The notes under the pieces are model-generated. The model was not told the origin of the DNA, did not search any database, and saw nothing but the letters and a program-made list of their open reading frames with translations. Shown piece after piece: positions 1 through 64,000 of a DNA stretch of 64,000 nucleotides (position 1 is the first letter of the stretch; each line of letters opens with the position of its first letter). The stretch lies in the NCBI GenBank assembly GCA_027603945.1, contig JADIIU010000065.1, forward strand, positions 1 to 64,000, in the 5' to 3' direction. The position numbers were made by a program, and so were the translations under genes. This stretch comes from Terramyces sp. JEL0728 (Eukaryota; Chytridiomycota; Chytridiomycetes; Rhizophydiales; Terramycetaceae).

Positions 1-818
1 GAAAAAAATGCGGACTAAACAAATAAATGCCTTTTTCCAAAGTGGAGAGGTCTATGCGAAATGCTTCTGAAAGCAAATTAAATGGTTTGTTGTACAATTT
101 GATGAGATCATTTTTCCACTGCAAAAATCCATCGACTGCCTTTTCGCAAGTGATATGTACTTTTTCAGTAATATTTTTATCATATAATATTTCTCTAGAA
201 CTCTCCAACAGGGAGTCGATACCTGGATTAAAAATCAAAAACCTTTGTTTTCATGCCTTGGTGAGTGTAAATTGAGATTTGAGCCTCTGTCTCCACATCT
301 TTTCTTGAAATCGTATAGAATTTGATTAGAACACTTTCTCTTGAATTGAGCATAAGGAGTAGGGTTTTGATCAGATATGAAGGTGGATGAAGATTGATGA
401 TTGACGGTTGGTCTAGTACTCCACGATATTATTGAACCATGTTGAATAAGAGTTGTTCCATTTTCTTGGTCATCTTCATAAGCTTCTTCGTCGCTGGAAG
501 TTACGGAATATGCTCGCAAATCAATTGATATCTCGTTACTTATATTTGGAAATGAAAAATTGGTAGTCAAAATGGATATCATAGCAGGAATCTCTGTTAC
601 CTGAGACGGGATAGTACTAAATCCAACAGCAGTAGTTGGCAAAGCACCTAAAATAGGGCTGTCAGCACTTTCATTTTCTGAACTGTCATCAGATTGCATC
701 ATAAGCTGTGGTAAATTTCCATTTGATTGTATGTCTGCGATACTTTCATTTTCCGAACTGTTATCGGTTGGGGCCATCAATTCAGGTAATTCTAAATTAA
801 AAATGTAATACCATCCAT
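1..818 (-). CDS. Unknown Ser/Asp-rich protein, partial at window edge
   Basis: I do not recognise this protein. The reading frame opens at an ATG at 818 with a 7-nt first exon (812-818), then a 20-nt intron (792-811), a long exon (243-791), a second 20-nt intron (223-242) and a final exon running off the window at base 1. The N-terminal part is acidic and low-complexity, with repeated SSENES motifs and long Ser/Thr stretches, so it is probably disordered. The part after the second intron looks like a folded helical segment. No signal peptide or membrane segment is visible. Joining the exons keeps one open frame for the full visible length, which is the main support. Confidence 0.6.
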
Positions 819-993
819 TTTATTTTGTATTTGTATCGAAAATAGAAAGAAGGTTTTATTGGTTTTCGCTGCGGTCCCAACTCATGACAGAATGTTGCAC
901 AATTTTCTCAATTTAGCACCCCTGTAAAGTACTTGTACTTTAATTATTTCTCTGTATTCAATCGGAAAACGCCATTAAATAACACATTTACAT

Positions 994-1035
994 AAAATAG
1001 TGATTGATAACATTAAAATAGTGATTGATAACATT
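994..1035. repeat. Two direct copies of a 21-nt unit
   Basis: The unit aaaatagtgattgataacat(t) occurs twice head to tail in the AT-rich gap between the first gene and a short secreted-peptide frame. It is probably simple slippage; no function is implied. Confidence 0.7.
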
Positions 1036-1162
1036 AAATTACTGCAGTATACTCTGTAGTATAGCTAAATTATTTGGTTGCTTTTTCCCTGTGTTCCAAA
1101 TGTGGGTGTGGCGCAACGTGATTGGGATTCGAAATCAAGTGATTTCCCTTTTCAACAAAAAT

Positions 1163-1303
1163 ATGAATTCAATAAAATTAATCTCCTTATTGATTGCAAC
1201 TGTATTTACTTCCGCAATCCCTAGCACTTCCAATAATGACTTGGATGTAGAGGTTGTACAATTCGAGCTCGGAGAAGGTTCAGCAGCATCAGGAAGAAAG
1301 TAA
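1163..1303 (+). CDS. Possible small secreted peptide (46 aa)
   Basis: A short frame starts at ATG 1163 and encodes a textbook signal-peptide profile: Met-Asn-Ser-Ile-Lys followed by a hydrophobic run (LISLLIATVFTSA) and a likely cleavage site near IPS. The mature part is about 27 residues, acidic, and ends in GRK. A GT right at the stop could begin a 23-nt intron that would change only the last residues. There is no homology I can name. The frame lies upstream of the ABC transporter on the same strand and may be chance. Confidence 0.3.
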   Translation: MNSIKLISLLIATVFTSAIPSTSNNDLDVEVVQFELGEGSAASGRK

Positions 1304-1627
1304 ATTCTTCAATAAAATTTAGCTCATAGCATTTTTTCTATTTGATTTATTTAAAAATAATTGTTTATTGTAAGATTATTATTCGATTTTGAAGATCGAA
1401 TACGAAATGGAACAAACTTGAATTATTGGCTGGTTCGATGATAGATTGTTGAAACATATACTTTCATCGAACAAGAAACCCCTCTCTACATTTTCCACTT
1501 GTTTGGTATTTTCCTTCACTTTCGCTAAATTGTCATTTCTGAAAAACATGGGATCTCATTCACGTGGAATGGTACAAAAATGGATGTGGCAACAAGAAAA
1601 AAGACTGGTACCGAAAGTTTGTCCCCA

Positions 1628-4600
1628 ATGAAAAAAATCCCAACTGATATTTACAACCTTTTAACAAATGCATGGATGACGCCTATAATGAAACAAGTTG
1701 AAGAGGGAAAACTCCAGGATGATGTAATACGATACTAACCAAGATTCAATTAGAATTACCTGAAAATTGTCGAGAAATTAAACCATTTCTTCAACCATAT
1801 TTAGATCATTTGGAAGGATTTCAAAGAGGTGAATCAGCACCTCCTAATCTCTATTTACATTTATTTAAAATATTCAAATTTCAAATGTAACGATAATTTA
1901 ACTTTAGATTGGCAGTAACTATTCTTCAGCTGATATCGATGACGCTTGATGCAATTAAACCGTTATTAATTGCACAGGTAATTTTTAAGCTAAATCAGTT
2001 TCTGGTATTTCTGGACCCGTTCAGTACCGATAGTTTGTGGTTTAATAATATTCAATACTCATTGATCATCTTGGTTGGTATTATTCTGATAAAGCCACTA
2101 TTAGAATCCTTCACGGCATCACTGGATCAAAAATTGGAAAACCGATTTTGGTGTTATTTTTCAGTTTTACTGTACAAAAAAACATTAAAACTGAGTCCAA
2201 TTAGCCGGTTGGTAAATTTAAATAATATTAGAAGTACGAAACAGGAAATATTATGAACCTGTTCTACAGGGATATGAATAGAGTTTACTCTGGGCTAACA
2301 GTGATTAAAAATGCCATGTACCCGATAGTGCTAATCCTCCTCAACTTTGTATTTCTGCATCAATTAATTGGTATTCCGGCAATTATTTCAGGAATATTCT
2401 ACTTTTTGTTTCTTATACCAGTCATCATCTTAGAAGTGAAGAATGTAGCTTACAATACAGAATCAAATATACTGCAAGATAAGAAAGCCAACCTTCTCCG
2501 TGAACTTTTCAAAAGTAATTATATTTAATGTAGATATTAAAAAAGTTAAATTTTCAAATATTGAAGATTACTTTTCCAAGCGAGTAATTAAAAATGTGAC
2601 TGATGATATTAAAGTGGGTGCCAAGACCTACTTTATTAGCCGAATGAAACTCACACTTACTCAATCTCTTACCACTGTCCTTAGTTGTATGACATATATT
2701 ATTTACAGTTTCTTGGGAAATGCTATTACTCCATCTGTTGTATTCCCAACATACTTGTATCTTGATGCGATTTCATATCAATTGAGTTCGCTCAAGAATG
2801 TATTTGCAAATGTTTTGAATATATACGAGGGATACCAGCTAATGTCGGATTATCTATTGGCAGAAGAGTTTGTAGATGTTACTCAAAAGTCAGAAGACAG
2901 CGAGGTTGCACTCCAGATGAAAAATGTAACTTGGAAATGGCACGATGCTAAATACATCAAGGAACTGCACTCACAATACATTACGCAGCTAAGATATATC
3001 ATAAAGACCAAACAGGAAGCACTGGATTGCAAGGAGAATGAAAACACATTTGAGCTACAGGTGACTGATCTGACCATCAAGAAGGGCAAGTTGATTGGCG
3101 TAGTTGGGACAGTTGGCGCAGGAAAAAGTACTCTATTTGCTGGGTTAAAGTCCATACCAGCCCTCATCGAAGGAAATGTAAGCAATGCTAAGAATAGGTC
3201 ATCAGCAATGGGGAAACCGCATACTATTCCCAGGAACCGTGGATCATGACTGACGACATTCAAACTAATATAACATTTGGAAAAGAACTAGACTATGCAA
3301 AACTTGAACGGATAGTGAAAGCCTGTGGTTTAGTCAAAGACTTGAACTCTCTCGACGACGGGATTTTTTCAAAACTGGGTGAAAGCGGGATAAACTTGTC
3401 TGGAGGACAAAAAGCACGGGTTGCTCTCGCTCGCTGTATGTATTCAGATGCGGATATCTATCTCTTGGACGACCCGCTTGCTGCTTTAGATGCATATGTC
3501 GGGAAGCAAGTGTTTGAACGGGCTGTGAAACGAGAGCTTGCAGGGAAAACAGTGTTGCTGGCTACTCACCAACTTCAGTACATGCAACAGATGGACGAGA
3601 TACTAGTGCTGGAAGAGGGAAAAGTGGCAGAATTTGGATCATTCGACGAGTTGATGAAGATAGATGACGGGAAATTGAAAAGAATGATGCTGAACTTTTC
3701 AGTCGACGAAGGGCCAGGCATTCCTGTCGCCGAAGAAGAGTTACTTCAACCATTATCCCAAAAATCAAAAGTTCAAGAATTTGTCAAAGTAGAGAAAAAG
3801 CAAGAGGTAGCTACTAGTTAATCCCCAGGGAAAGATTACTTTTTCGTTGTTTAGAAAAATCTTTTCAGGAATCAAAAACCCTCTTTGGCTTCCAGGAATT
3901 GTTTTTGGATTTATTCTAAATTTCGCAGTGGAATTTATTGGGTTGCTAATCATAACAGCTTGGTCGAACGATGCTTCGAAAAGCTCCTATTATATTAATC
4001 TGCTCTTAATTACAACTGCTTCTAGATTAACAATCTTTTGTAACTCACATTTCACAGTAGATTTGCTCAATTTGGCGTGGTTTATCGCTGGCAACGATAC
4101 TTTCCAATATTTCTCTATTGAATTACTGAATTCTGTTGTGAATGCTCCACAATATTTCTTTGAAGAGAATCCTCTTGGAAGAATTTTAAGTCGGTTTACA
4201 TCTGACCTTACAGTTTTGGATCATCGTATATTTAATTCCATTTATGTGTCTATTACTGGATTCCTTACATTTGTTGGGAAAAGCGCGTTGGTTTGTGTTG
4301 CTAGTCCAGCATTAATAGGTAAATTTAAGTAACCCAGTACTATTGGCAATTGCCTATTCAATTATATGGCATGTTCGAGAAGTCTTCGACACAGCAACTT
4401 TGGAATTCAAAAGATATCTTTCAGTTTATTCTTCATCATTTACCGGATTGGAAGTTGAAACTATTAATGGAGTTCAAACAATAACTTCATTCACTACAGG
4501 TCAGAAACTATTCAAAGAACGATTTTACAAATTCTTTGACAAACTCAGTGGATGGGTGGCAATGGTGCAGTATAACAACTTGTGGTATCAATTCCGGGTA

Positions 4601-7600
4601 TCCATGGTTAATGCCTTCATTTGTATAGGGGTCTTGGTTGGTGCACTACTAACTAATCAACATTCCACTCTTTTTAGTGCACTGGTTGGTCTGGCTATCA
4701 CCCAAGCTGAAAGTTGTTCAACGCAACTTGTGCTACTAATTATTAATTTAGCCTCGGGGAAATCTCAGGTAAATACTTCTCATTTCAGATGAATTCCTTT
4801 GAAAGAGTGGTCGAGTACATTCACGATTCTCCCCAAGAAGCACCAAGTGAACTGCCAAAAGATCCGCAAGAAAATACATGGCCGTCACAGGGATCTGTCG
4901 AAATTAAAGAACTCACTCTGGCTTATCACAGCAAGCCAGACAAGAATGTGATCAATAAGCTATCCATGTCAATCAAACCGGGAGAAAAGGTCGGTGTTGT
5001 TGGGAGAACTGGCTCTGGGAAATCCACATTGGCACTGGCATTCTTTAGACTCCTTGAACCAAAGAGCGGAAGCATTATCATTGATGACAGAGGTGACTGT
5101 TTACTGATTTAGACATTACCAAGATGGGATTAAAAGCTTTGAGATCAAACATCCAAATTATTGCACAAGAGGCAAACATCTTTCCTGGCACTATCCGATA
5201 CAATCTCTGTCTCGAATCAGTATTCACGGATGAGGAGCTGTGGCAGGCTTTGGACATGGTTGGAATGAAGGACTATGTGTCACAGCTGCCAGATAAGTTG
5301 GATCACGAATTGATTGGCAACGCAAGCAATCTCTCTGCTGGACAAGGACAGTTATTGTGTTTGGCTAGAGCACTGGTCAAAAAGCCTAAACTGTTGATTT
5401 TGGACGAAGCCAGCTCTTCAATTGACGGAGAAGCAGACAAGATGCTGCAAAGTGTATTGAGAAAGACCCTGCAAGACACAACCATCATCAGCATTGCTCA
5501 CAGACTAAACACCATTGCAGATTTTGACAGAGTGTTGGTTCTCGACCAAGGAGAAATGAAGGAGTTTGATGCTCCACATGTTCTTTTACAAAACGAGGAA
5601 TCTGAATTCACCAAACTGGTAGACTCGTCTGGTCCTTCAAGGGTTGCACTCCAGATGAAAAATGTAACTTGGAAATGGCACGATGCTAAATACATCAAGG
5701 AATTGCACTCACAATACATTACGCAGCTAAGATATATCATAAAGACCAAACAGGAAGCACTGGATTGCAAGGAGAATGAAAACACATTTGAGCTACAGGT
5801 GACTGATCTGACCATCAAGAAGGGCAAGTTGATTGGCGTAGTTGGGACAGTTGGCGCAGGAAAAAGTACTCTATTTGCTGGGTTAAAGTCCATACCAGCC
5901 CTCATCGAAGGAAATGTAAGCAATGCTAAGAATAGGTCATCAGCAATGGGGAAACCGCATACTATTCCCAGGAACCGTGGATCATGACTGACGACATTCA
6001 AACTAATATAACATTTGGAAAAGAACTAGATTATGCAAAACTTGAACGGATAGTGAAAGCCTGTGGTTTAGTCAAAGACTTGAACTCTCTCGACGACGGG
6101 ATTTTTTCAAAACTGGGTGAAAGCGGGATAAACTTGTCTGGAGGACAAAAAGCACGGGTTGCTCTCGCTCGCTGTATGTATTCAGATGCGGATATCTATC
6201 TCTTGGACGACCCGCTTGCTGCTTTAGATGCATATGTCGGGAAGCAAGTGTTTGAACGGGCTGTGAAACGAGAGCTTGCAGGGAAAACAGTGTTGCTGGC
6301 TACTCACCAACTTCAGTACATGCAACAGATGGACGAGATACTAGTGCTGGAAGAGGGAAAAGTGGCAGAATTTGGATCATTCGACGAGTTGATGAAGATA
6401 GATGACGGGAAATTGAAAAGAATGATGCTGAACTTTTCAGTCGACGAAGGGCCAGGCATTCCTGTCGCCGAAGAAGAGTTACTTCAACCATTATCCCAAA
6501 AATCAAAAGTTCAAGAATTTGTCAAAGTAGAGAAAAAGCAAGAGGTAGCTACTAGTTAATCCCCAGGGAAAGATTACTTTTTCGTTGTTTAGAAAAATCT
6601 TTTCAGGAATCAAAAACCCTCTTTGGCTTCCAGGAATTGTTTTTGGATTTATTCTAAATTTCGCAGTGGAATTTATTGGGTTGCTAATCATAACAGCTTG
6701 GTCGAACGATGCTTCAAAAAGCTCCTATTATATTAATCTGCTCTTAATTACAACTGCTTCTAGATTAACAATCTTTTGTAACTCACATTTCACAGTAGAT
6801 TTGCTCAATTTGGCGTGGTTTATCGCTGGCAACGATACTTTCCAATATTTCTCTATTGAATTACTGAATTCTGTTGTGAATGCTCCACAATATTTCTTTG
6901 AAGAGAATCCTCTTGGAAGAATTTTAAGTCGGTTTACATCTGACCTTTTAGTTTTAGATCATCGTATATATAATTCCATTTATGTGTCTACTACTGGATT
7001 CCTTACATTTGTTGGGAAAAGCGTGTTCGTTTGTGTTGCTAGTCCAGCATTAATAGGTAAATTTTAGTAACCCAGTACTATTGGCAATTGCCTATTCAAT
7101 TATATGGTACGTTCGAGATATTTACGACACAGCAACTTTGGAATTTCGAAGATATTTTTCAGTGTATTATTCAACTTTTATGGGAATAGAGGTTGAGACT
7201 ATTGCTGGAGTTCAAACAATAACTTCATTCACTACAGGTCAGAAACTATTCAAAGAACGATTCTATAAATTCTTTGATAAATTCAGTGGATGGGTTGCAA
7301 TGGTGAAGTATAACAACTTGTGGTATCAATTTCGAGTATCCATGGTTAATGCCTTCATTTGTATAGGGGTCTTGGTTGGTGCACTACTAACTAATCAACA
7401 TTCCACTCTTTTTAGTGCACTGGTTGGTCTGGCTATCACCCAAGCTGAAAGTTGTTCAACGCAACTTGTGCTACTAATTATTAATTTAGCCTCGGGGAAA
7501 TCTCAGGTAAATATTTCTCATTTCAGATGAATTCCTTTGAAAGAGTGATCGAGTACATTCACGATTCTCCCCAAGAAGCACCAAGTGAACTGCCAAAAGA

Positions 7601-8431: not shown

Positions 8432-8691
8432 TTTCAATTCCATATGCCTTTCAAGAGAGTATGCATTTTGAACAGGACAAATGATGACGAGGCTATACCA
8501 CAGTGAATACTGCTGCAGTTAATGGTACCAATCGCAATGTATGTTAATTTGATGACGATTATCGATTCAGATAGCGTACAGAGGTGCGATCATCTATTGA
8601 GAGTGATTGTTTGTGCCATTCATTGTAATATCTCTCTTTCCATATATTTGTGTAATTTATTCAACTTTTCAAAGAAAATTCAGACAATTTA

Positions 8692-37833: not shown

Positions 37834-40306
37834 ATGAACTTGTTGCGAACAAGAATATCAACACTGCTTGGTAGGCGGCTTCGGGATAAAATCGCAAGAT
37901 ATTCCACCAGCGTAGAAAAGGAGCTTGAATCCGGCCCAATGGAGGATCCCGGAATTCACCGAGGTGTTGTGTGGTATGATAACGTATTCCCTTTCAAAAT
38001 GGCAATCATTGACCCTCGCTCATACTTTATTAAAAGCTATGCCGAAGACATGATTAATGGAAAGTTTCAGTCGCTCTTGCCCAGAAGATTCCCAGAAGGA
38101 GCGGAATTGATTACAACAAAAGTAGAGCCGAATTTAAAGGAAGGCGGTTTATACTTGGAATTTAAATACAAAGGAGGTACAATTGAGGAGGCAGTTAGTG
38201 CTATCCAAAAACACGTCAAAGAAAACAATATTCGGTCCAGTTTCAATTACGGTAAAATCAATGCTTTCGAAGTAAAAGGAACTCCATGGGTTGAAGACTT
38301 GGTGTCTCGAAAACCTTCGACTAGACTTCATGTTGAATTTCACGGTCCAGATTTGACGGTTGAGTCGCTTTTTAGAGAATTTAGAGGTTTTGGTAGAATT
38401 GTAGATATTACTTTGCAGCCGTCATCTTCAAAAGATTTACCAAAATATGCGTCTGTAGAATTCCTGTCTAAACGATCTGCTACTTCTGCCAGAAACTGTA
38501 TTCACGGCGAAGTATTTGGCGGGACAAGATTAGCGATTGGATATGAAAAAGTATCTGTTACTCACCCTAGACTCCTAACGCTTTCCAGCAGTTTAACCAT
38601 TGGGCTCAGAACAATATTCGTATTTCCATGTTATTGTTGCTGGTGTTGGTTGCTGGCTTTACCTATGCAGTGTTTGATCCTTGGCGAATATTCGCAATTA
38701 AAAATCACATTACTGGAAATTTGGATATCAGAAGATATACAAAGGCTGCAGGAAAGTGGGTTGAGCTAATTAAATCACTGATCCACCAAATTTTGAATCC
38801 AGACCCTATCTATCAAAACATTGATAAGCAACCAGATGCCTCTACTGAACAGTGGAGCGAACGGGAATTACAAGAAAGAGCACTGGGGGCTCATTTAAAG
38901 CAAGATCCAGATTCATTCTATTTAATTTCTGGCCCAAGAGGCAGTGGGAAAAGCGGTTTCATCCAAGACGCTCTTATTGGACGTAGGTACAAGATGATTA
39001 TCCGCTGTGACGAATTGGTTGGCAAGAATGATTTCCAGCTACTCTCAAACTTGTGCTCCCAGGTGCACTTCTTCCCTGCTTTTGGATTCTTGGCCCAGAT
39101 TGGAGGATTTATTGACGCTCTGGTTACTGCTACTACTGGGGCAAAAGCAAATATTTCCACCACTAATGAAGGCGAAATCACTAAAGTTCTTGAGTGTGTT
39201 ACTCTTGCCTTGGAAGAAATCACTGAAAAACAAAAAAAGTCCAGACAATTACTGCAAAAGAGATTTGAGGAAGGAGGTATTGATGAAGAAGAACTGAAAA
39301 TTATTCAATCCATCGAGTATCCAGTGGTGGTTATTGAAGATTTCCTTGCCAAGGAAAATATCAAAGGGCATCACATTTACAACCGACTTGCAGAGGTGAT
39401 TACCTTTTAATTACAGTGGGCAGCTCAAATTGCCGAATATCGATCAGCACATGTAGTGTTTGTTAGCGAAAATCCTTCGGCGTCTAGGGTATTGGGAAAA
39501 GGTATTTCCAAGCTGATCTAGTTTTGCCAAACAAATCGATCGAGCATTTCCACTTGGCAGATGCTTCACCTGAAGGCGCTCTGGCGTATGTTAAAAAGAG
39601 ACTTGGCCATGAGCTGCTTAATGAAATCAAGGAGCCTATCCAACAGCTTGGCGGGAGGTTACACGATCTGGACATTTTCATAAACAAAATCCAAGCAGGA
39701 AGATTGCCGTCTGGTACAACTTTACTAATGTAAGACGCGATTGCTGATATGGTTCAAAGAGCAGTTGTCGATTTACGCAAGCTGGGTCACATGGAAGATT
39801 TCAAAGACGAAAAAACTGGTTGGACATCAGTTCAATTTTGGAAGATTGCGGAAATCCTCTCAAAGAATACTGAAGCATCTTACGATGAAGTTTGTTTCCA
39901 TCCACTATTCAAAGGGGATCCAACAGCATTGGAACAGATGGAAAGGGCAGGGATCATTTCCAGAGTTCACCAAAATGGAAGACCATACGTTGTTAAGGCT
40001 GGTAGACCGTTATTTGGATTAGCATTTTCAGAAATGACAATGGACAAGCGATTAAGATCTACGATGGGAGCCATAACTTCAAAGCAATTAGCCGCAGATT
40101 ATACCAAGAAGGTACATGAACTTGAAGCGGAATTGCAAACGTTAGCTGGTATTGTTGCTGGATTTAATGGCGGCGGTGGTTGGGCTGACCCAGTGCAATC
40201 GCGAAGGCAATGGCTTCTAAAGATGGTCAACCTGAACTCTGCCAAAGCCCAATTGTATGCAGAAAAAGAGATGGATTACAAAGCTCAGTTAAAACTAGCC
40301 GAATAA
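37834..40306 (+). CDS. YME2: Mitochondrial escape protein 2 (YME2/RNA12)
   Basis: Introns 38551-38570, 39396-39416, 39502-39521 and 39714-39734 give 796 residues. An Arg-rich presequence (MNLLRTRISTLLGRRLRDKI) precedes an RRM-like domain (TRLHVEFHGPDLTVESLFRE), a membrane segment (MLLLLVLVAGFTYAVFDPWR), a P-loop ATPase domain (ISGPRGSGKSGFI, VVVIEDF) and a coiled-coil C-terminus. Yeast Yme2 is an inner-membrane protein affecting mtDNA maintenance and escape. The family is essentially fungal. Confidence 0.93.
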
Positions 40307-41206: not shown

Positions 41207-43151
41207 TTAGTCATCAAGCTCATTTATTTCGTTGAATAAGTACATGGTAAAGCTATTCAAAAATGCGGGTATGCTGTTGTACTGGTCAATGTAATACTCC
41301 TTCAACTCCCCAGCATAGTGTTGTGTCTCTGGACTGCCACCAACGATTAACAGCTCTCCCCCGTTCTGACTGTTGTCGTCTGGGATCAATTTAAAGTATG
41401 GATCGCTATCTCTTGCGTAAATTGAGCTTAATCTGCAAGATCCATCTTCCGGGAATTCAATTTTATATCCCAACATGAAATACACGTACTTTTTGTACTC
41501 TTGAACTTTTCTCCCAAATTCCTATGTTAACAATGCGTACTTGTTTTAACCTCTTGATTTTAGTTTCTCTGTTTTGCAATTCTTCTTGCAATTCTTGGAT
41601 TTGGCTGTGCAAATTTTTGAGAGTTTGTTCTGATACATTTGACTTTGCGTTTGATCTCAACTCTTGGTTTTCTAACCGTAGAGACTCGATCGTAGTAATA
41701 TAGTTCATTCTGAGAGTTTCTTCCGGGCTACTTTTCAATGATAAAACCCAAATTAATGTGCAGGTACCTTAATACTATCTTGATTGTATTCTCCTGTTCC
41801 TAATCTTTTCGCGTAACGGTCCAGTTCCACATTTAGATTTTCAATTGTTTCTTCACATTTGGATTGGCTGGATTTCACTACTTCATGTTGCTTCTTTAAC
41901 GATTCAAATTCTTGATTAACCAAATTTAATTGAGCGCTGTAGTTCTCTTCTACGATTTTATACGTTTCTATTTGAGCATTCAATTGTGATATATTTTGCA
42001 AGTGTATGTTGTTATTGTTTTCAAATTGCTGGATTTGTAGTTGTTTTTGATTCAGCATCTGTTCGTATTCTGTTATTTGGTTCTTGTAAGCATTGATTAC
42101 ATTTTCATTTGACAGCTGAATTTCATTTCCAAAAGATTCTTTGAGAAATTTGATTTCTTGTTCTTTGATTTTCAGAGTAGTTAGCATTCTACGCGAATTC
42201 GTCGTTGATTCATCCACTTTTGATTGCAAAGTGTCCATGTTTGCAGTCATTTCCATTATTTGCACTTCCTTATCCTTCAACCCTGCCACAGTGCGAGTGT
42301 TTTCTGATTTGAGGGAAAGTAATTGATCATTTAAAAGTAAGATCTCCTTGTGCTTTTCAGCTAATGTTCGCACCAATCCGAATGGGGAAGTAAATTCGAT
42401 ATTGCGTTCCTGCAATAATGTTTGCCAGCTCTGTTTCTCCTTTTCATACTCTGTAATTTTCAACTTTGTTTCTTCCAGTTCCTTGACCACCTTTTCCATC
42501 AACCTCAGCTTGAATGACAATGAATTATTTTCTTCCAGTAATTTTGCTGAATTCGTCTGCATTGATTTCAGAAAACCGTTTTCACTCTTTAAAGTTGATA
42601 TTTCTGTTTCCAACTTCCTAGTTAAATGTTGATAATCTGCAAGTGAGGCTAGTACATACCTGGTATTAATGAAATCCCGTACCTGCTACTTTTTGCAAAG
42701 TCGATTCAAATTCCGGATCTTTCTCTTTTACTGTTATCGTCTCGGTCTTGTAAATGATCTTTGGCTCTTCCTTCACAAACACCTTTTCCAATTGGAATTT
42801 GGGGACTTGAATATCCAGTCGTTCATCTTTAAGACTGTTTATCGTCCTGAATTAAGCCCATGATACCTAATACGTTAGGATCCTCAACCTTTCCTTTTCT
42901 TGGATAATTTTTTTCAAATTCGCAATTTCTCCATTCTCATTTTGTTTAATCTCTTGTAACTGTCTGTTTAATTCGTGATTCTGTTGGAATAGCAATTTGC
43001 TGTTTGCTTGCAAATTGGTAATCTCATTCACTTTTGTATTTATTTCCAATTGGTTATTCTCATCCTGCTGCTCGAGGGAAATGATCTGCTTGTTTAGTCT
43101 CGTCTCCAATTCAACCATTTGTCTCTTCAAGAGATTAGCCTGGTACGACAT
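41207..43151 (-). CDS. MAD1: Spindle checkpoint protein Mad1
   Basis: Exons combine to about 605 residues. Most of the protein is coiled coil. Near the end of the coil is RLGTGEYNQDSIKV, then VLSLKSSPEET, and a C-terminal RWD-like domain (EFGRKVQEYKKYVYFMLGYK; YNSIPAFLNSFTMYLFNE), a plan and motifs characteristic of Mad1. It recruits Mad2 to unattached kinetochores. Introns: 42847-42888 (two abutting units, or a 27-nt alternative), 42637-42682 (unclear), 41748-41767 (apparent GT-GG) and 41522-41540. Splicing is less certain here than in other genes, but the domain order is clear. Confidence 0.85.
41748..41767 (-). other. Candidate GT-GG mini-intron in Mad1
   Basis: GTACCTGCACATTAATTTGG carries a good 5' end and an ATTAAT branch motif but ends in GG. 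Removing exactly 20 nt joins DSIKV... to VLSLKSSPEET in frame. No GT-AG alternative keeps the frame. Confidence 0.55.
42847..42888 (-). other. Two abutting mini-introns in Mad1
   Basis: A 22-nt and a 20-nt GT-AG unit lie back to back with no exon between them; each has its own branch motif (CCTAAC and CTTAAT). A single 27-nt intron (42847-42873) would also keep the frame. Confidence 0.5.
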
Positions 43152-43169: not shown

Positions 43170-44057
43170 CTAAAATGAAAATATATTAAATGGTACAATG
43201 CGGTTTCCATTTTCTAAATGCAAATGGTGTTGAGCATCGCAATGCTCTAATTTTACCAAAGCAAGACCAACATTCCCCAAGCACGATCCTGTTTTGCCGA
43301 CACTTTTTGGTTTATCAGAAAGAAAGATCTCTTGATGCGGTACAAATCTGTTGGATCCGTTGATATGACTGAATTCGCGAACTAGTTCTTCACTTTTGTC
43401 GAATACTCGTATTGGTAAAATCTGCTTTCTTATCACGCCAGTATGATGAGTTCTAATCGTCAATTCAAGGTTAGAAACCCCTTACCTTGCCCTAAATAGC
43501 AACCTTTTTTAAAATCAACCCCATTGAATAAATCTAAATTGCATTCCAATGGTAAAGAAACGTTTTCAATCATATCGTCAGGACCTTCAGGTATCCCAAG
43601 TTGAATCCTCTTGAGCAGATATTCGTTGTCATTTGCTTCAGAATCCAGTGTTTCAGCAGACAACATCCTATACCCCATTTGTTGATGCCTTGGGTCTGCA
43701 ACCAAAACTGCATTTCCTTGTTGAAGACATGAGTATGACTGATATACATTCATATCCAGTGGGCTTAATTTAACTTTTGAACGGAGGATATACTTTTCCA
43801 AGTGCTTAACTAAATTTTCAATGCTTCTATGGTCGACTTCCACAATATAATCTTTATCATGTCGATATATGAATGCATCGGTTATAATCCGTCCCTATGT
43901 TAATGTTTTATACTTTTGGATTCAAGAAGGCAGTAAATATTCCAGACTGACTTTCAAGTTTGGCGATTTGATTTGTAATTAAACCCTGAAGAAAATTTGT
44001 TGCTCCATTCCCTGTTACCCGGATGCATTTTCTATTCAGCTTGAACAATTTGCTCAT
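43170..44057 (-). CDS. IBA57: IBA57, mitochondrial Fe-S assembly factor
   Basis: Introns 43895-43913 (19 nt) and 43466-43485 (apparent GT-TG) give 282 residues. The GcvT-like fold shows LFKLNRKCIRVTGNGATNFL, QGLITNQI, FTAFLNPKGRIITDAFIY, a hydrophobic core and the diagnostic KKGCYLGQ motif followed by ELTIRTHHTGVIRKQILP. IBA57 works with ISCA1/2 in [4Fe-4S] cluster formation. The protein is short but complete. Confidence 0.93.
43466..43485 (-). other. GT-TG mini-intron in IBA57
   Basis: GTAAGGGGTTTCTAACCTTG has a normal 5' end and a CTAAC branch motif 4 nt from its end, but ends in TTG. Removal joins GCYLGQ to ELTIRTHH, the invariant IBA57 sequence. The next AG downstream gives a premature stop. 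Confidence 0.8.
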
Positions 44058-47786: not shown

Positions 47787-49235
47787 TTATATATGCTGTT
47801 GTTGCCATATTTGAATACAAGATTCCGAAATATTTAGCATTTGAGGCATAATTTCATCTACAAAGATGTCCTAATAGATCAAACAGAATGTACCTGGATT
47901 TGATACCACTGATTGGAGATAGGACAGGGAAACTGAACCTTGTAACCAGAATTCAGCGACTTTTCGTCTCCATCATGAATTACATTTGCAATAAGATCGT
48001 ACTTTGTGCTTAAATCACAGTTGTCGTCAGATAAATCTAAATTAAATTCCACATACACGGTGACATGTCCAAGCTTTTCAGGGGAAAGTTTACAATAGTG
48101 GGGTTTCTTTCTATATTAAAGCCGCCTTTGGATATCCTCTTTACACATAGTATTAGGAATGGTGGGAGCTGGGAAATTGAATACCTTTTCAAAGTCCCAT
48201 TTGATTCAACTGTCGTCTTTCCATCGAACTTGGCCAATAGCGATGCCAGTGTGACCTGCGGCACTACATAGTTGGAGTCGCCTGTGAATAAAGGTGTTGG
48301 TGGTAAATCCAATGAAAGAAACAAAAACGGAGACTTGGTCCCACCGAACCCAGTTTCATTGAAACTCTGAGAATCACCTTCTGAACGTCCAATTGAGACT
48401 ATTGATTGCGATTCAATAAACATTTCTCCTTGAAATATTTCATATAGCATACTGCTCCTGAATTTCTTTGTGCCTCCGATTCCTCTATGAATTTCATTCA
48501 AGAACCAAGATGTAAAGTCAATAGGATCTCCAGCTCGTCCAAGTTTAAATCGTTTTCCACTCGCATTGGAGACTTCCTGGACCAGTTCATGCGGGCTGAT
48601 ATGAGATTTGAATGCTTTGGGATTCCATATTTTTCTTATTATCATTCCAAATCTTTTCAGCAACTCCAAAGGAAAAGAAGCTACAAGAAAATAGTCTCGC
48701 AGTGGAGGGACATGGGCTAATGCAAGCACCACAACATTAATAAAGTCGTTCAACTTGATATTATTCAAACCAATGTATCCTATATTTAAGTGTATGTTAC
48801 CTGGGAGATATTTTTTACCCAGCAAATCAACAGAAAATGAAGGATTCTTGTCTAGATGACAGACTACTTCTTTTGTAAAGGTTGGTTTAACCACATACTG
48901 GATCAATAGAATAATACCTTGATATCGTTTAATGATGAATCTGTGACTTCGTAATTTTCTGGTAAAACATAAACTTTCAAAGATTCCAAATTAATGAATA
49001 CATGATGATCTTCATTCATTGAGTGGTAAAACGCATGGGATTGCTGTCCCCTTCCTTGGTAGTACTTTCCGCAAGTGAGACATCCATACACATTATTGTT
49101 TGTCAAACTCACGCAGCACAATTTCTCAAAGTCAAAATCCAATACATTCCTATTGATCGTTTCCAGATATAATCCTTTCACTTCAACTGTTTTCTGTTTT
49201 TTTCTTGGTTTTACTTTATAATCGTGATCTTCCAT
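47787..49235 (-). CDS. SAD1: Sad1/USP39 tri-snRNP splicing factor
   Basis: Three introns (48898-48917, 48037-48056, 47871-47893) give 461 residues. A ZnF-UBP (LCCVSLTNNNVYGCLTCGKY, YQGRGQQSHAFYHSM) precedes a USP-like domain. The usual catalytic Cys box is replaced by GLNNIKLNDFINVVVLALAH, as in USP39, which is an inactive ubiquitin-specific protease acting in spliceosome assembly. FFxxEIHRGIGG-like and LPPFLILCVKR motifs follow. Loss of the Cys is therefore normal for this family. It converges on SCAPER (22 bp). Confidence 0.93.
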
Positions 49236-51390: not shown

Positions 51391-51398
51391 TTGAAAAA

Positions 51399-52082: not shown

Positions 52083-52124
52083 ATATAAATATAAATTTTC
52101 CTTAATTTTTTTTTCAAAAAAATA

Positions 52125-55100
52125 ATGGTGTCAGACTTGGAGAGAGCTATAGGGATGGCTCTAGACCCATCGACAAGGGGGCCCATAAAAGACCAAGCGA
52201 TTCAGTATTGCAATCACATTAAACAATCCAATAATGGGTGGGAAATGTGTGCAAAATTGGCTGATGAAACGAGGTATTAGATTTTTAAATTAGTATTCCT
52301 GAAATCAAGTTTTTTTGCTTTCAAGTTATAGAAGAATCTTTGCGCAACACACCTGGAAATGCGGATATCAGAAAATTGCTTTGGAAATGGCTGTATGAAA
52401 ATATCACGGCAAACTTTCCATATTATCTTCGGAACAAATTATATGTGCTGATTGTACTCTTGTTTAGAAATCAATATCCTCATCAATGGCCAACTTTTTT
52501 TGACGAGTTGTTTTCCCTGATTGATGATCCTAAAGGAGTGTTGCCATTTTTACAAATTCTGATTACAATCGACGAAGAAGTAGTGTGCTTGTTGATTAAT
52601 CGGAGCCAGGAAGATCTTGCTAGGAATACACTTATCAAGGATACCATGAGGGAAACCGTTGTCCCGCGGTTGCTGGAAACCTGGCTTTCAATTCTAACAA
52701 CTTTCAACCAATCAAATATGGAGTTGTCCGCCGCATGTTTAAAGTTATTCGGGTTGTATGTATCATGGGTCGATATCAACTTAATTCTACAACCAAAGTT
52801 CATTTCCATATTATTAGAATCATTCTCCAATGCCAAATTACGGATACCTGCTTGTGAATGCCTATCTAATATGATTATGAAAGGAATGAAATCTTCAGAT
52901 AAATTAAAAATGATCCAAATGCTTAATATTTTCAATATTTTAGGAAATTTGAATTTCAGCGACGAAGAATTTGATGGACAGGTTGCTAAATTGATCAATA
53001 ATGTTGGATTGGAATTGTGTCACAGCTATGACGATGCATCTTCGACGGATCACGACAAATACACTGCCATTCAACTTTTAGGTGGTCTGTTCCCTTTTTT
53101 GCTTAAATATATCTCCAGTAACCACGAAGAAACCACTAGCGCTCTATTTCAATTCCTGGGCAGTTACTTGTTGCTTTTGAAACGGCTCAAAAGGCTAAAC
53201 ATCGAGGGGATTTCTCAAGACAGTTTGGCTACTTTGTTACAAACGTTGGTGGCAAAATTAAAATATGACCCTGAGACCGAGTATCGGGTCAAAGAAGATT
53301 CTGGGGAAGATGAGGCAATATTTACCGAGCTGCGAAAAGTAATGTCTCATTTAAATATAGGCAATTAAAGTGCATACCGAATCAATAGCTGCTATAGATG
53401 AAGACTTGTATACAAAATGTGTCTCTGAAATTGTGCTTAAAGTATTCGACACCGCAATTAATGCTAAAATGCGTGCAGGGTTTGCAAATCTCAACTGGTA
53501 CGACATTGAAGGTGCAATGTATTTGCTATACATTTTAGTTGAAGCAAAAGTGGGAAAAGGTCCGCCTGTTTATATTAATAGTAACGGCAATTACACTCCA
53601 ATTGGCTTACTATTATCAAAATTAATGGAGTCAGGTAATTTTAGACTAAACCAAGGTCTTTCGTCATTCCCACACCCATCTATACCAACCATTTATTTTG
53701 AAATTATTTTTAGATACTGCCAATTTTTTGAACAACGACAAAATTACCTGCCAGAAGTATTACAATCTTTTTTGGATACAAGGTTTGTGTTTTTAACCAC
53801 TAGGGGCCTCTTCCATCCAGTCAAGTCGATCAGATTGCGAGTGAATTATTTGTTCTTGAGATTTGTGAAGCTTCTACGCCAATTCTTGGGCCAATATGTT
53901 GAAAGTATTCTTTCGGCATTGACCGAATTATTGGTGATTAAACAACGAATTCTGCCAACCTCTAATGATCCCAGCGTGGCAAGTGATTTTGACAGCCAGA
54001 TTTATCTGTTTGAGGCAGTTGGATACCTTATTTCTGTAGATACCATTACTCCGCAAAGACAAGGCGAGTTGTTGACGGTATTTTTGTTTAATTGTAGATT
54101 GTCATGATACCTCTGTTGCAGAAAATTGAGGAAATAATGCACCACTCTGACTCTACTTCTCTCAATGATATTTACATTGCCGAATTGGCGGATTTGGTCA
54201 GTGCAATTGGAGGGATCAGCAAGGGGTTTCCAGAGTTTGAAAAATCAAAAGTCACCAACTACAACCCAGAAGTATGGAGAAATCCATTTAATACGACAAT
54301 CCAAGGAATATTGGTGGTGCTGCGGAAATTTAATCGCTATCCTCCGATTAGAGAAGCTGTAATATCAGAATTAAAAACTAGAGCCGTTTTGCACTGCAAA
54401 GAATGACAGGATGCATGGGGCCAGAGCTGCTAGAATACATACCGGTTTTTTTATCGTCTGGACTGCTATCTAGCGAAACAGCTGTGGAAATTATTGATTT
54501 CCTGCCATTCATTTGTCTAACAATTTACAAATTTCAGCAATCAGTGGAGCAAATTTTGAAAGGAGTGTGGAAACCACTCAGAGAAAAGATTTCATATTTT
54601 CTGTCACAACCACCGGTTGGAACAGACGATGCTTTGAACTTGCTAAACCTTCGCAAGGCCGATTTGACGCTAATTACTACACTCTTCAACTCTCAGCTGA
54701 ATGACATTATGACCTGTCCCGGTAATTTAATACTAATTGAGAAAATATTTCAGAGTTGAATTCAACGCTATCGTCAATCTTGGCATGCTTCGACAGTTAT
54801 TCAGATCTACCAGCCCAGAAACTAGCCGTGTCCCTGTTAAATAAAATGGTATTTTGCTGGGGAGGAATGGGAAATACTATTCAAGAACAGCTGGAAGTAA
54901 AGAAAAAAGGGACAGCTACCAGTGCCAGAGATCCACTCAAAAGAAACCCACTGGCAGGATTTGACGCATTTATATACGAACAAATTATCCCAATTTCGTT
55001 TTCAATCCCAATGAAAGCAGGGTTTAATCTGAACGATGGACAGAGTGTCGTTTTGCTGGGCGAAATATCGCAGCTATTCAAGTCAACCCATCAAGTGCTA

Positions 55101-55244
55101 GGGAGATCTTTTCTGGAATATCTATCGAGCACATTCTTCCCATCAATTTCGTGTAATTCAACTTTAACTGCTCAATTTATAACCGCTCTAGAACAATTAG
55201 ACAAGAAGAGCTTCAAAAAATACCTACATGTAACTAAGAATTAA
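52125..55244 (+). CDS. LOS1: Exportin-T (Los1/XPOT), tRNA exporter
   Basis: Five introns (52274-52293, 53339-53360, 54078-54097, 54359-54381, 54722-54741) give 1,004 residues. The N-terminus (MVSDLERAIGMALDPSTRGP) and the importin-beta-like region RNKLYVLIVLLFRNQYPHQW, PTFFDELFSL and ITIDEEVVCLLINRSQEDLA then RNTLIKDTMRE match Los1/exportin-T closely. The C-terminal HEAT repeats include RFALQRMTGCMGPELLEYIP. It carries mature tRNA out of the nucleus with RanGTP. At the last intron a 32-nt alternative also keeps frame, but the 20-nt form fits the local pattern. Confidence 0.9.
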
Positions 55245-55314
55245 CGATAGACATTCTACTCTCAACCTGCATCATAATATGTACTAATGTCTACATAATA
55301 ATATATACGATAAT

Positions 55315-57777: not shown

Positions 57778-57791
57778 AAATTGGTTTTATT

Positions 57792-58814: not shown

Positions 58815-58922
58815 TTTCTAATTGGACGTGTCCAGGATTTGCTTTTATACATTTTACACTTCATTTCTGTCACTTTTTCATTGTCGCCAAAGACCCGGAG
58901 AAACGGCTAAAAAGAATTACTT

Positions 58923-59804: not shown

Positions 59805-59883
59805 TTTTTGTTTCCACGAAAATCAGACAAAAAATCCCATTGTCTTTGGTCATACAAACTGTCAAAGATTTTCCATTCCCTTT

Positions 59884-60977
59884 ATGGCTGATAAGTAATC
59901 AACTGATAACGATAGCGTACAAGAAAAGAAAAAGAATCATTTCAGATTAGAGAATTATCTCAAGAATGAAAAGAGAGCTTACCAAGAGTATAAAATGCAA
60001 CCAAAATTGTTGATTCTGGGGTCATCGGATTCAGGAAAGTCTACCTTATTAAAGCAAATGAAGATAATGCATGGAAATGGATTCTCTGATGAAGAAAGGA
60101 AACAAGCCGCGCAGGGAATCAAAGACAACATTTTGACAGGAATCCACCAATTACTCAGCGGAACAGAGTCGCTAGATAAAGAGGTAAGTAATTAATGATT
60201 CCAGAACTACGTAGAGTTTTTTGATTTTTATGAATGCTGGCAAGATAAAGAGGTGAAAATACCACCGCATATTATAGATACAATTGTACAATTATGGAAA
60301 TTACCAGCTGTACAAGAAATCCTAAAAGAAAACAAAGTAAGGATACCAGATACAACCCCACAGTAATACTGTTTGACTCTAGATTCTTGGAAAACGCGTC
60401 AAAATATTTGGATGAATCCTATATACCTACAAACGACGATATATTAATGCTAAGGACGGTTACTCAACATGTCTCTGAAACAATATTTACTATCAAAAAG
60501 AAAATCGTGCGGTTTTTTGATGTCAGTGGTCTGATTCACCATCGCAAGACCTGGCTGAGTTACTTTGACGATGTCCAAACAGTTCTCTTTGTAATGTCAC
60601 TAGCATCATACGACCAATTCCTTGCTGAGGATTCCACCATAAATATGATGGTGGATTCGCTGGTGCTATTCGAGCAAGTGATCAACAACCCAATCTTGTC
60701 AACGCCAAACTTTGTGCTGTTCTTCAACAAAAAAGATATTTACGAAAAGAAAATTAAACTAGTGCCACTGAACAGCTTCTTTCCGGAATACACAGGTAGT
60801 TAATTTGATAATCATGCAGACAAACCATTCAGCGCTTCCAAAGGAGTGTCTTTTATCAAAAAGAAATTTCTCTCGCAGATAAAAGGAAAGAAATCCATAG
60901 TGTGCCATATCACTTGTGCTACCGACACAAATTCTATGCAGGTGGTGCTGGAAACAATGCTGTACGAACATTATTAA
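59884..60977 (+). CDS. Divergent G-protein alpha subunit (G-alpha-like 3)
   Basis: Start ATG 59884; introns 59895-59915, 60184-60204, 60363-60382 and 60796-60819 give 335 residues. P-loop GSSDSGKST, DESYIPTNDDILMLRTVTQ, switch II FDVSGLIHHRKTWLSYFDD (Gln to Leu at 60531-60533), FFNKKDIY, and a canonical TCATDT. The C-terminus reads VVLETMLYEHY, not a classical G-alpha tail. There is no N-terminal MGxxxS. First of four copies in this cluster. Confidence 0.88.
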
Positions 60978-61244
60978 CTGTAGCGCTTCCATTCTAGAAG
61001 GGAACTTGAGAGATGCTGGAGTAATTTAGTAATAAAACTAGCTTTATACATACTAATAAATGCTTGTGGACAACAGAACAGAGTCTGCAAATATTTTGAA
61101 GCTTCCAATAATAGATCCTTAGCCAGTACTAGTAGCTATGGTTTTGTTAGTCCCGGAACTGGCAAATACTATTTGTCCATTATTAAAATAGGGTGGGGGT
61201 TTATTTACATTTACCTCAGGACCGTCACCTCTCCACTCACTTTC

Positions 61245-62365
61245 ATGATGGAGTAATCAACTTCTAACGTAGAAATAAAGCGATTGAGAAATATTTAAAC
61301 GAAGAACGGAAAGCTTACAAGATTTTTAAGCAACATCTAAAGCTATTAATTCTCGGATCTTCAGATTCTGGAAAATCGACACTATTGAAACAACTAAAGC
61401 TTATGCATGGGAATGGATTTACTGATAAAGAGAAATTGCAATTTGCTCAAGGCATCAAGGAAAATATTATCCATTCCTTACATTTATTGGTTTCCAATAC
61501 GGAAAAGCTGGAAAAGGAGGTCCTGAAAGACTAATGTAGAAATACGCTGTATTTGATCAATTTTACAAGGATTGGAGTGCAAATCCGGATTTTCCAATCA
61601 CTGGCGAGATAGCAGGTTTGATGGCGAATCTTTGGAAGGAAAAACTGGTCCAAGATACCTTTGATTCAGGTGAATTAGTGCTGCAAGATACCATTTCCTA
61701 GTATTTAAATAGTTAAATTAGCTTTTTACAGGATATTCCCGGTTACTTGTCCAGCGCGTTTTCGCCGACAAACAACGGTAACTTCCACTTATTCAGATAT
61801 ACTAAATTTACGAACAGTCACCCAGCATATTTCCGAGAGCGTTTTCAATATAGATCAGAGGGTGGTACGATTTTACGATGTAAGTGGATTAAAATACCAC
61901 AGAAAGTCCTGGCTGACTTATTTTGACGACGTTCACTCTATTTTATTTGTAGCATCCTTGTCTGCTTATGACAAGTACCTAGCGGAGGATTGCACTATTA
62001 ACATGATGGTTGATTCGCTTGTGCTATTTGAACAAATCATTAACCACCCGCTACTGGACAAGCCCAGCTTTGTCTTGTTTCTGAACAAAAGGGATCTCTA
62101 TGACAAAAAGGTGCTTAAAGTGGACATTGTAAACTTTTTCCCAGAATACACCGGTGAGTAGAAACTAACAGTAGACAAGCCGAAAAGTCTGTCCAGGGGA
62201 TTGTCCTTTTTCAAAAAGAAATTCTTGAGTCAAGCCAAAAAGGAGCGGTCGATTGTTGTTCATATTACTTGCTGTACCGACACAAATTCAATGAAAATCA
62301 TCATAAGCAACTTGGTAGCGTCTGTCATGAAAGAAAATCTAAAAGACCTTGGTATCTGGTATTAA
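61245..62365 (+). CDS. Divergent G-protein alpha subunit (G-alpha-like 4)
   Basis: Start ATG 61245 (or the adjacent 61248); introns 61253-61272, 61520-61539, 61701-61721, 61778-61796 and 62154-62174 give 339 residues. P-loop GSSDSGKST, NNDILNLRTVTQHISE, switch II YDVSGLKYHRKSWLTYFDD (Gln to Leu at 61889-61891), FLNKRDLY, TCCTDT. It alone keeps a long alpha-5 tail, ending VMKENLKDLGIWY, close to the classical ENLKDCGLF receptor-binding end. It may therefore be the only member here able to couple to receptors. Confidence 0.88.
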
Positions 62366-62502
62366 TATAGGCATTGTTCAATAAATCTTCAATTACACTT
62401 TGTAGACATGAATACCACATATTAATATAAAGCCGCATTATTATAGATACAAAGATTTGTTGCATGACAATAAAAATTATCTCATTGTGTGAATTTGGAA
62501 AA

Positions 62503-63583
62503 ATGTCAGAAAAGCTGTCAAGGGCAGACGAAAGGAGGTTGCAGCCAAATTGATATTAGGATAAGCAAAGAAATAGAAGCATTTCTAAGAGAGGAGAAGA
62601 AGAAATATGAAAAATTTCAGGACACACCAAAAATGCTCATCCTCGGATCGTCTGATAGTGGAAAATCAACTCTTCTCAAGCAGCTAAAGATACTACATGG
62701 CTCAGGATTTGAAGAGTCTCAAAGAAAAGACTACGCACTGCAAATCAGAAGGAATGTCCAGACTGTCCTATCCGTGTTGATAAGCAAATTGAAAGAAGAA
62801 CAGTTGCAAGTAAGAACGACTAAATCAGGACTATACGCCATTAGCGCAGTTTCTCAGACACAATGACGGTACTTTTCCCAAAGATATTCAGCAATTGATT
62901 CTCCAGTTTACCAAAGAGAAATTTGTGGTGGAAATAGGAGAATCGCTGCCCACAGATATTATACCAGACAACACGTTTCAGTATTTGTAGCTTAACTGTA
63001 GTTTCTTTTCGGATTCGAGATTTTTCAATGATGACTATGACCCAACAAATGAAGGTTGAAATATCTTATCCTAGACATTCTAAATCTTCGAACAGTCACC
63101 CAAAGTGTAACTATGGAGACTTTTGCGATACAAAAAGATAAGGGGACTTTTTTACACGTATTCGATGTCAGCGGATTGATAAATCATAGAAAACAGTGGG
63201 TACAATACTTTGATACTGTTAGTCTAATATTATTCATAGTTTCGCTGTCATCCTACGACCAAGCTCTTGCTGAAGATCCCACAAAAAACCGAATGATTGA
63301 CGCGATTGTGCTTTTCGAACAGATGATTGAGCACCCCTTGCTAAAGAAACAGGCGTTTGTGATATTTTTCAACAAGAAGGATGTCTATGAAAAGAAGGTT
63401 AGAAAAGTGAATATTATTGACTTTTTTCCAGAGTATCACGGCAAACCGCAGAGCGTATCGCAGGGAATCAAATTCTTTCACTCAAAATTCTTGGCAAATG
63501 TTAAAGAAAGAAAGGTCACTTCACATATCACTTGCTGCACAGACACAAACCTCATGAAAACGATCGTTGCAGCAGTAGTGTAA
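62503..63583 (+). CDS. Divergent G-protein alpha subunit (G-alpha-like 5)
   Basis: Start ATG 62503; introns 62538-62559, 62810-62828, 62981-63001 and 63055-63074 give 332 residues. P-loop GSSDSGKST, NEDILNLRTVTQSVTMET, switch II FDVSGLINHRKQWVQYFDT (Gln to Leu at 63176-63178), FFNKKDVY, TCCTDT. The C-terminus stops at KTIVAAVV. There is a two-residue insertion before switch II (GTFLHVFDV). N-terminus MSEKLSRADERR has no myristoylation signal. Confidence 0.88.
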
Positions 63584-63736
63584 GCATTGATGCTAATCAC
63601 AGGGAAAATATCATACAAACAAACATTAATAAAATAGGATTTTGATTTAGCTAGCACTAGCATTTTGGTTTTACAAACTATTGTTTCATTGTTTATTCAA
63701 TCCACCTAAGAAAATGACGTTGATTTTTTCCTGACA

Positions 63737-64000
63737 TGAGTGACAGCACACCTAAAAAGTAACTGCGAATTGCTCACAATAGAAAGGATAGCGTGAAAAT
63801 AAGTAAGGATATTGAAAAGTATCTAAAGGAAGAAAAACGGACGTTCGAGCAATACAGGAGGGAGCCCAAATTACTCCTGCTGGGATCTTCAGATTCAGGG
63901 AAATCCACTCTGCTAAAACAAATGAAAATATTGCACGGAAGTGGTTTTACAAAAGAGGAAAAGGAAAGAAGCGCTGTGAATATCAGAAGAAATATTTACG
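63737..64000 (+). CDS. Divergent G-protein alpha subunit, 5' part only (G-alpha-like 6)
   Basis: ATG 63737 starts MSDSTPKKKDSVKISKDIEK; a short intron (about 63760-63782) precedes the P-loop LLLLGSSDSGKSTLLKQMKI followed by LHGSGFTKEEK. The gene continues past the window end. It is the fourth tandem copy in this cluster; switch II is not visible. Confidence 0.8.

Follow-up and report, generated by a model that had tools for sequence, protein, structure and literature searches.

Probable U2-type introns of nearly uniform length (19-22 nt) in the genes of the chytrid Terramyces sp. JEL0728

Interrupted genes of the window

The genome of Terramyces sp. JEL0728, a member of the free-living saprobic Terramycetaceae, comprises 15.0 Mb in 231 contigs. 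The window analysed here is the stretch of bases 1-64000 of contig C65, and its genes are interrupted by segments of about 20 nucleotides (nt) which begin with GT and end with AG. In 1..64000, 119 introns were called in 48 gene models, 112 of them of 19-22 nt and 118 of 18-25 nt. These segments interrupt coding sequence, are missing from homologous proteins, carry donor, branch and acceptor motifs set at constant distances and are located on the coding strand.

The whole sample amounted to ~281 kb, ~2% of the genome, and was composed of the window, 20 stretches of 10 kb on other contigs and four loci picked for spliceosome genes. For the window and the 20 stretches a prior-free gene finder was used, which relies on coding content only, charges the same penalty for every intron whatever its length, and needs just GT and AG. 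The full finder, from which the counts above were taken, has donor, branch, acceptor and length models; its branch model was seeded with YTRAY, while the spacing was learned and left free over 0-8. Since its length prior was trained on its own earlier calls and helps the length proportions, the prior-free runs are the less biased evidence on length. Foreign proteins were also aligned to the DNA without splice-site rules; free jumps of 4-150 nt (RNA12, exportin-T and U2AF1) or 4-120 nt (Prp8) were permitted, each at the same cost.

The RNA12/Yme2 gene (37939-40306, plus strand) has four introns, all of which were called ab initio and were also jumped by the deposited RNA12 proteins of Terramyces (P0121) and Boothiomyces (P0122). 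Intron 1 (38551..38570, 20 nt) gave a jump of 20 nt with these two proteins and was placed by none of the four references from other families; P0127 jumps 20 nt as well, 28 nt downstream and without GT-AG. Intron 2 (39396..39416, 21 nt), intron 3 (39502..39521, 20 nt) and intron 4 (39714..39734, 21 nt) were placed by all four of these references, and 12 of 16 introns-by-reference were exact. The spliced model is 100% identical to the deposited Terramyces sp. JEL0728 protein over that protein's 741 residues, and the deposited annotation (P0121) concurs at all four joins.

The exportin-T gene (about 52125-55278, plus strand) has eight introns and was aligned with the deposited Terramyces protein (P0241), two Boothiomyces proteins (P0242 and P0243) and three distant references. 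Six of the introns were called ab initio. The first of these (52274..52293, 20 nt) is supported by P0242 and P0243 and by no distant reference, their jumps being 17, 17 and 23 nt. The intron at 53339..53360 (22 nt) is supported by P0241, P0242, P0243 and two of the three distant references, that at 53635..53655 (21 nt) by P0241, P0242 and all three, that at 54078..54097 (20 nt) by P0241-P0243 and all three, that at 54722..54741 (20 nt) by P0242 and all three, and that at 55230..55250 (21 nt) by P0241, P0242 and one. The other two were overlooked ab initio and were placed by all three distant references, along with P0242 but not P0241 at 53783..53803 (21 nt) and with P0241-P0243 at 54359..54381 (23 nt). 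Altogether 18 of 24 introns-by-reference were exact, the misses lying mostly at divergent ends. Exportin-T is 99% identical to the deposited protein over 98% of the query. P0241 retains the 21-nt intron at 53783 and removes 83 nt at 54722, where the intron is of 20 nt.

Two further genes were supported by alignment of the spliced product. The USP39/Sad1 gene, modelled at 47879-49235 on the minus strand, has three introns called ab initio, namely intron 1 (48898..48917, 20 nt), intron 2 (48780..48800, 21 nt) and intron 3 (48037..48056, 20 nt), and residues 23-427 of the spliced protein align across all three joins to the solved USP39 (chain 6qw6_U) with an E value of 1.9e-124. The G-protein alpha gene, modelled at 59884-60977 on the plus strand, has four introns, likewise called ab initio, at 59895..59915 (21 nt), 60184..60204 (21 nt), 60363..60382 (20 nt) and 60796..60819 (24 nt), and its spliced protein matches PF00503 over 14-329 unbroken.

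The first-pass annotation of this DNA had proposed about 125 introns in 64 kb, almost all of 18-25 nt, and had named three joins as examples. The number is fair, as at least 122 are now counted: the 119 called, two more by homology and one of the named joins. For the lengths, 118 of the 119 calls, made with the length prior, agree, and the prior-free peak lies at 19-22 nt. Two of the three joins were called exactly. The first is an intron of 20 nt in an ABC transporter gene (3178..3197, plus strand), found ab initio, and the second an intron of 19 nt (41522..41540, minus strand), called with and without prior, in a gene for which the name Mad1 is kept from that annotation. The third (43895..43913, minus strand; 19 nt, GTATAAAACATTAACATAG) matches the strict motif described below and received no call from the full finder; its gene is presumably IBA57, as a KGCYLGQ motif suggests by eye.

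The ABC transporter gene is tandemly duplicated over about 2900-8430 of the window, and its introns are duplicated along with it. The intron at 3178..3197 has an identical copy at 5916-5935, and the pair starting at 3807 and 6545 is identical too. The pairs 4319 and 7057, 4769 and 7507, and 5093 and 7831 differ by one or two changes with no change of length.

Prp8 and U2AF1 introns placed by foreign proteins

For Prp8, the two end pieces of the available gene, which lacks its 3' end, were aligned with the proteins of Entophlyctis luteolus, Batrachochytrium dendrobatidis, Gorgonomyces haynaldii and a bird. All four references jumped at five shared places, by 20, 19, 22, 21 and 21 nt. In all 20 introns-by-reference the length was exact and GT-AG lay within 9 nt of the jump, although GT-AG was not required. 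The 1408-residue exon of the gene matches Prp8 of Boothiomyces sp. JEL0866 at 98%, of E. luteolus at 86% and of B. dendrobatidis at 85%. An aphelid origin of the DNA was rejected on the Prp8 match to Boothiomyces and the RNA12 match to Terramyces, which assign it to Terramyces sp. JEL0728 or a nearly identical strain (Chytridiomycota, Rhizophydiales, Terramycetaceae). With the human U2AF1 protein, the three free jumps in the Terramyces gene were 19, 19 and 19 nt, three of three introns. All 20 homology-supported introns of Prp8, RNA12, exportin-T and U2AF1 are of 23 nt or less.

The Boothiomyces Prp8 protein (P0001) has seven extra residues at the position of the first Prp8 intron, which, in the protein, read as a retained 21-nt intron; this intron thus seems conserved between the genera. 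As a practical matter, three deposited proteins of the family (P0001, P0241 and P0243) err where tiny introns were kept or miscut.

Length distribution of the introns

In the first prior-free pass, with a coding model from long open reading frames only, 57 of 202 cuts were of 19-22 nt. After retraining, the prior-free run gave 298 cuts, of which 95 were of 19-22 nt (21, 47, 13 and 14 at 19, 20, 21 and 22 nt), and every other length up to 59 nt had five cuts or fewer. The requirement for GT and AG was then compared with 18 control dinucleotide pairs, again with no length prior. GT-AG gave 121 of 271 cuts at 18-24 nt, 54 of them at exactly 20 nt, while the controls gave 10-35 of 210-312 cuts at these lengths and at most 11 at any single length. 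At 25-60 nt, 57 cuts were found for GT-AG against 73-115 in the controls, and at 61-120 nt 76 against 93-137. The longer GT-AG cuts fall below every control, so the data give no hint of an additional class of longer introns.

The pattern extends beyond the window, as the first-pass annotation had expected: introns of 17-26 nt were obtained without prior in 18 of the 20 sampled 10-kb stretches on other contigs, while L017 and L018, the other two, gave none of 17-26 nt in the prior-free run. The full finder called 406 introns in the whole sample, 379 of 19-22 nt and 393 of 18-25 nt. The density at real loci was 1.64 introns of 17-26 nt per coding kb, and extrapolation from the 406 introns in ~281 kb gives roughly 20,000 introns in the genome. 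A narrow distribution of intron length below 30 nt is the norm in the sampled ~2% of the genome.

Motif, strand and chance controls

A strict motif, GTR-N7..9-YTRAY-N1..2-YAG, was found 69 times in the window (29 on the plus and 40 on the minus strand). In 100 dinucleotide shuffles, both strands counted, the mean was 4.7 with a standard deviation of 2.2 and a maximum of 13, and the reversed, uncomplemented window gave nine. Sixty-three of the 69 matches fall within called genes and share the strand of the gene, one is inside a gene on the other strand and five are in neither position; 61 are identical to called introns. False positives of the full finder were estimated on 144 synonymously shuffled coding sequences (189.5 kb), with three repeats at each of four penalties, and 0-7 introns were called. 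This shuffle took the place of a test on already spliced coding sequences, which gave zero calls and was left unused as it is circular. At its loosest setting the full finder recovered four of four RNA12 introns, six of eight in exportin-T and two of three in U2AF1.

Anatomy of the introns

The introns of 17-26 nt, 366 in number, are built on narrowly fixed distances. The branch adenine is at position 14 in 169, at 15 in 149 (318 of 366 at either) and at 16 in 32. It is followed by 5 nt in 168 introns, 6 nt in 172 and 7 nt in 22, so that 340 of 366 have 5 or 6, close to the 4-5 nt from the acceptor given by the first-pass annotation. The lengths combine these distances: 80 of 84 introns of 19 nt have 14+5, those of 20 nt have 14+6 or 15+5, and 61 of 77 introns of 21 nt have 15+6. 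The stretch after the branch leaves no space for a polypyrimidine tract. TTAAT, CTAAT, TTAAC and CTAAC make up 214 of the 366 branch pentamers. The G+C content is 30%. Among all 406 introns the commonest donor is GTAATT (67), with A at +3 in 87% and T at +6 in 59%; G at +5 occurs in just 71. At the acceptor, 264 introns have TAG and 97 have CAG.

When any acceptor was allowed at a penalty, GT-AG still accounted for 364 of 391 cuts. The non-canonical cuts comprised eight GT-TG and six GC-AG among one-off pairs, of which single cases alone look real by eye. Two candidate GT-TG introns, at 43466..43485 (minus strand; 20 nt, GTAAGGGGTTTCTAACCTTG), in the same gene as the join at 43895..43913, and at 29436-29455 (plus strand), have a strong donor, a CTAAC branch and a TTG end. 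A candidate GC-AG intron of 21 nt is in the SF1 gene (L037, 1757-1777, minus strand), where its removal presumably restores, judged by eye, a conserved stretch after the KH domain.

Components of the spliceosome

The U2, SF1, U2AF65, U2AF35 and Prp8 check that the first-pass annotation had suggested found all of them present; they look ordinary or undecided, and Prp8 is no outlier. U2 small nuclear RNA (snRNA) is at full length, with the branch-binding GUAGUA intact (GUGUAGUAUC), and the branch motif is able to pair with it. U2AF1 shows 66% identity to the human protein over 177 residues. U2AF2 aligns with the two RNA-binding RRMs and with the third domain of the solved U2AF65; its genome match, read exon by exon, scores under the family cut-off. 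SF1 and USP39/Sad1 are present, as is Prp8. The U2AF1, U2AF2 and SF1 genes themselves hold introns near 20 nt.

Of the positions on which 97% or more of 114 other Prp8 sequences agree, the available Prp8 differs at 28, and Boothiomyces shares the residue at 24 of these 28. A second count gave 22 deviations in Terramyces against a median of 3 (116 sequences), with seven in the RNase H domain against a median of 0. A special Prp8 was considered, as there are more odd residues than in most; since five sequences exceed it in RNase H changes and two equal it, no adaptation of Prp8 is claimed.

Two weak Rfam matches to U6 (~27 bits, cut-off 44) were rejected; by eye they have no AGC triad, and they look like repeats. 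The weak U6-like sequences at 1501 of L033 and L034 (contigs C199 and C111) are near-identical copies, probably of a repeat.

Interpretation and alternatives

The segments are, with high probability, U2-type spliceosomal introns of a chytrid, nearly all of 19-22 nt and built on one rigid plan. The first-pass annotation had likewise read them as introns, in a fungal-like lineage, and had also concluded that the spliceosome is adapted; its spliceosomal introns near 20 nt in a fungus are borne out, while the adapted spliceosome is still an inference from geometry. Three other explanations were weighed. The first is that the segments are sequencing or assembly errors, programmed frameshifts or translational bypasses; in its favour, many of them break the reading frame, and the evidence comes from DNA and proteins. 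Errors, however, should have no common donor, branch and acceptor motifs at constant distances and should not pile up at 19-22 nt, and the proteins of other chytrids and of animals lack the segments at the same places; the seven residues in Boothiomyces Prp8 (P0001) also suggest an element kept between genera. This explanation deserves hardly any credence. We give equally little to elimination at the DNA level, comparable to the internal eliminated sequences of ciliates, in place of removal from RNA. The segments would suit it in being short, frame-breaking and present on most sampled contigs, but they have GT-AG ends and a YTRAY branch motif, the U2 snRNA is canonical, and 63 of 64 strict-motif matches inside genes are on the coding strand. 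DNA elimination of this kind is not known from chytrids.

A substantial, overlooked class of ordinary introns longer than 30 nt, existing beside the short ones, is somewhat less far-fetched and still improbable. GT-AG cuts of 25-120 nt make up 133 of 271, and some gene models have cuts of 35-249 nt. The control pairs, on the other hand, give more cuts than GT-AG at both 25-60 and 61-120 nt, and none of the 20 homology-supported introns, all of them in coding regions, exceeds 23 nt.

Several observations speak against the reading of the segments as uniformly short spliceosomal introns, or temper it. The total path score for GT-AG was 6520 and three AT-rich control pairs reached 6520-6573, so that GT-AG is singled out by the length peak only and not by the total score; the coding model in this control had, moreover, been retrained on GT-AG models. 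Nine of the 406 calls are longer than 30 nt and two shorter than 17 nt, all of them candidate calls only. The finder at its loosest setting overlooks two of the eight exportin-T introns and one of the three in U2AF1. In the alignments a few jumps are spurious, chiefly with P0249 and P0250 for exportin-T, and the distant references fail to place the first introns of RNA12 and exportin-T. The evidence on the introns is made up of genomic DNA and protein alignments, from which removal at the RNA level is deduced. Some expected components were also not recovered. U1 was not found by Rfam, and of four places matching its canonical 11-nt 5' end none is U1 by Rfam. U6 was not found by Rfam, by a 29-nt core pattern with three mismatches or by a search with a 107-nt U6 sequence. 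RED, a human short-intron factor, was not found with RED_N. As no positive control from this genome backed the U1 and U6 searches and that for RED lacked a usable one, absence is not claimed for any of them.

Comparison with known systems

Ultrashort introns as a norm are already known elsewhere, and a chytrid is an unexpected host for them. The first-pass annotation had named ciliates, nucleomorphs and reduced parasites as hosts, and rightly so, since such introns occur in heterotrich ciliates, mikrocytids and nucleomorphs (PMC10245619). In the ciliate Stentor coeruleus, U2-type introns of 15-16 nt are the norm genome-wide (PMC9505925). Like Terramyces, it has a U2 with GUAGUA and orthologues of U2AF1, U2AF2 and SF1; in most of its 15-nt introns the branch adenine is at position 10, which leaves 5 nt behind it, as in about half of the Terramyces introns, and its most abundant intron starts with GUAAUU, which is the commonest Terramyces donor (PMC9505925). 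The two differ in the branch consensus, described as not strong in Stentor and a strong YTRAY in Terramyces, in the distance from donor to branch (10 nt against 14-15 nt), and in U1, which in Stentor has ACUUACCU (PMC9505925) and in Terramyces was not found by a search without positive control.

Mikrocytids resemble Terramyces in having many introns, of 16-17 nt, with strongly uniform length and strong sequence conservation (PMC10245619). Mikrocytos mackini, however, is an intracellular parasite with 224 predicted introns and 17-19 identified spliceosome proteins (PMC10245619), whereas Terramyces, with ~1.6 introns per coding kb, has kept U2AF1, U2AF2 and SF1. The chlorarachniophyte nucleomorph also has introns of 18-21 nt with a narrow spread, but it is the relict nucleus of an endosymbiont, whose ~300 genes hold more than 800 introns, compared with a fungal genome of 15 Mb (PMC10245619, PMC2483917). 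Among fungi, Yarrowia lipolytica likewise has the branch site a few nt from AG and no polypyrimidine tract; its introns are long and few, and the 3' spacing alone is shared (PMC2483917). Blastocladiella, which like Terramyces belongs to the early-diverging aquatic fungi and has canonical splice and branch sites, has introns of 55-333 nt, about 3 to 17 times longer (PMC2773782).

No report of ultrashort introns in chytrids was found in titles and abstracts of the open-licence literature, outside which the genome papers of the strains may lie. The deposited annotation (P0121 and P0241) already splices some of these introns, so the raw fact is in public records.

Proposed mechanism

The introns follow a plan of AAG/GTAWTT, then YTRAY with the branch adenine at 14-15, then YAG ending 5-6 nt on. 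They would be cut from RNA by a spliceosome whose parts (U2, U2AF1, U2AF2, SF1 and Prp8) are ordinary and in which U2AF1, U2AF2 and SF1 may recognise YTRAY and YAG as one compact block. As there is no space for a polypyrimidine tract, the 3' end may be set mainly by its constant distance from the branch. The donor and branch helices of the human B complex are 15 nm apart, for which a minimum of 52 nt was estimated, and in human extracts efficient assembly needs about 50 nt between donor and branch (PMC6692369). With 14-15 nt from donor to branch, both helices cannot sit as in the human B complex. This published geometry would imply either that the donor is handed over in turn or that the complex is more compact, and from geometry only we infer an adapted spliceosome.

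A wider reading is tentative, and we hold it at somewhat under even chances. The Terramycetaceae may independently have turned their whole intron set into near-identical modules of 20 nt, with a spliceosome that holds donor and branch a mere 14-15 nt apart and measures the 3' end by distance, and with U1 and U6 changed too; G at +5 of the donor is mostly gone, and standard models detected neither RNA. If this were true, the 5-nt tail and the GTAATT shared with Stentor would be the result of convergence towards the smallest span that spliceosome geometry physically permits. The present introns make it testable how a spliceosome works below the limit of about 50 nt, in a cultured fungus which retains U2AF1, U2AF2, SF1 and Prp8 and which, in contrast to the earlier hosts of ultrashort introns, is neither a reduced parasite nor a giant ciliate.

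Other observations

In the window no Rfam family was found at gathering score and no tRNA gene was detected. A search of viral contigs for DNA of relatives yielded no Prp8 relative and a single weak RNA12 match. Elsewhere in the genome (G000), contig C4 has the same 25-mers at 250290 and 281557 and at 277034 and 308286, ~31 kb apart on the one contig, and contig C29 likewise repeats 25-mers of its own at 29850 and 56826, ~27 kb apart; these repeats appear to be large segmental duplications or assembly duplicates. The window also encodes, at 16197-18817 on the minus strand, an Argonaute with N, PAZ and Piwi domains.

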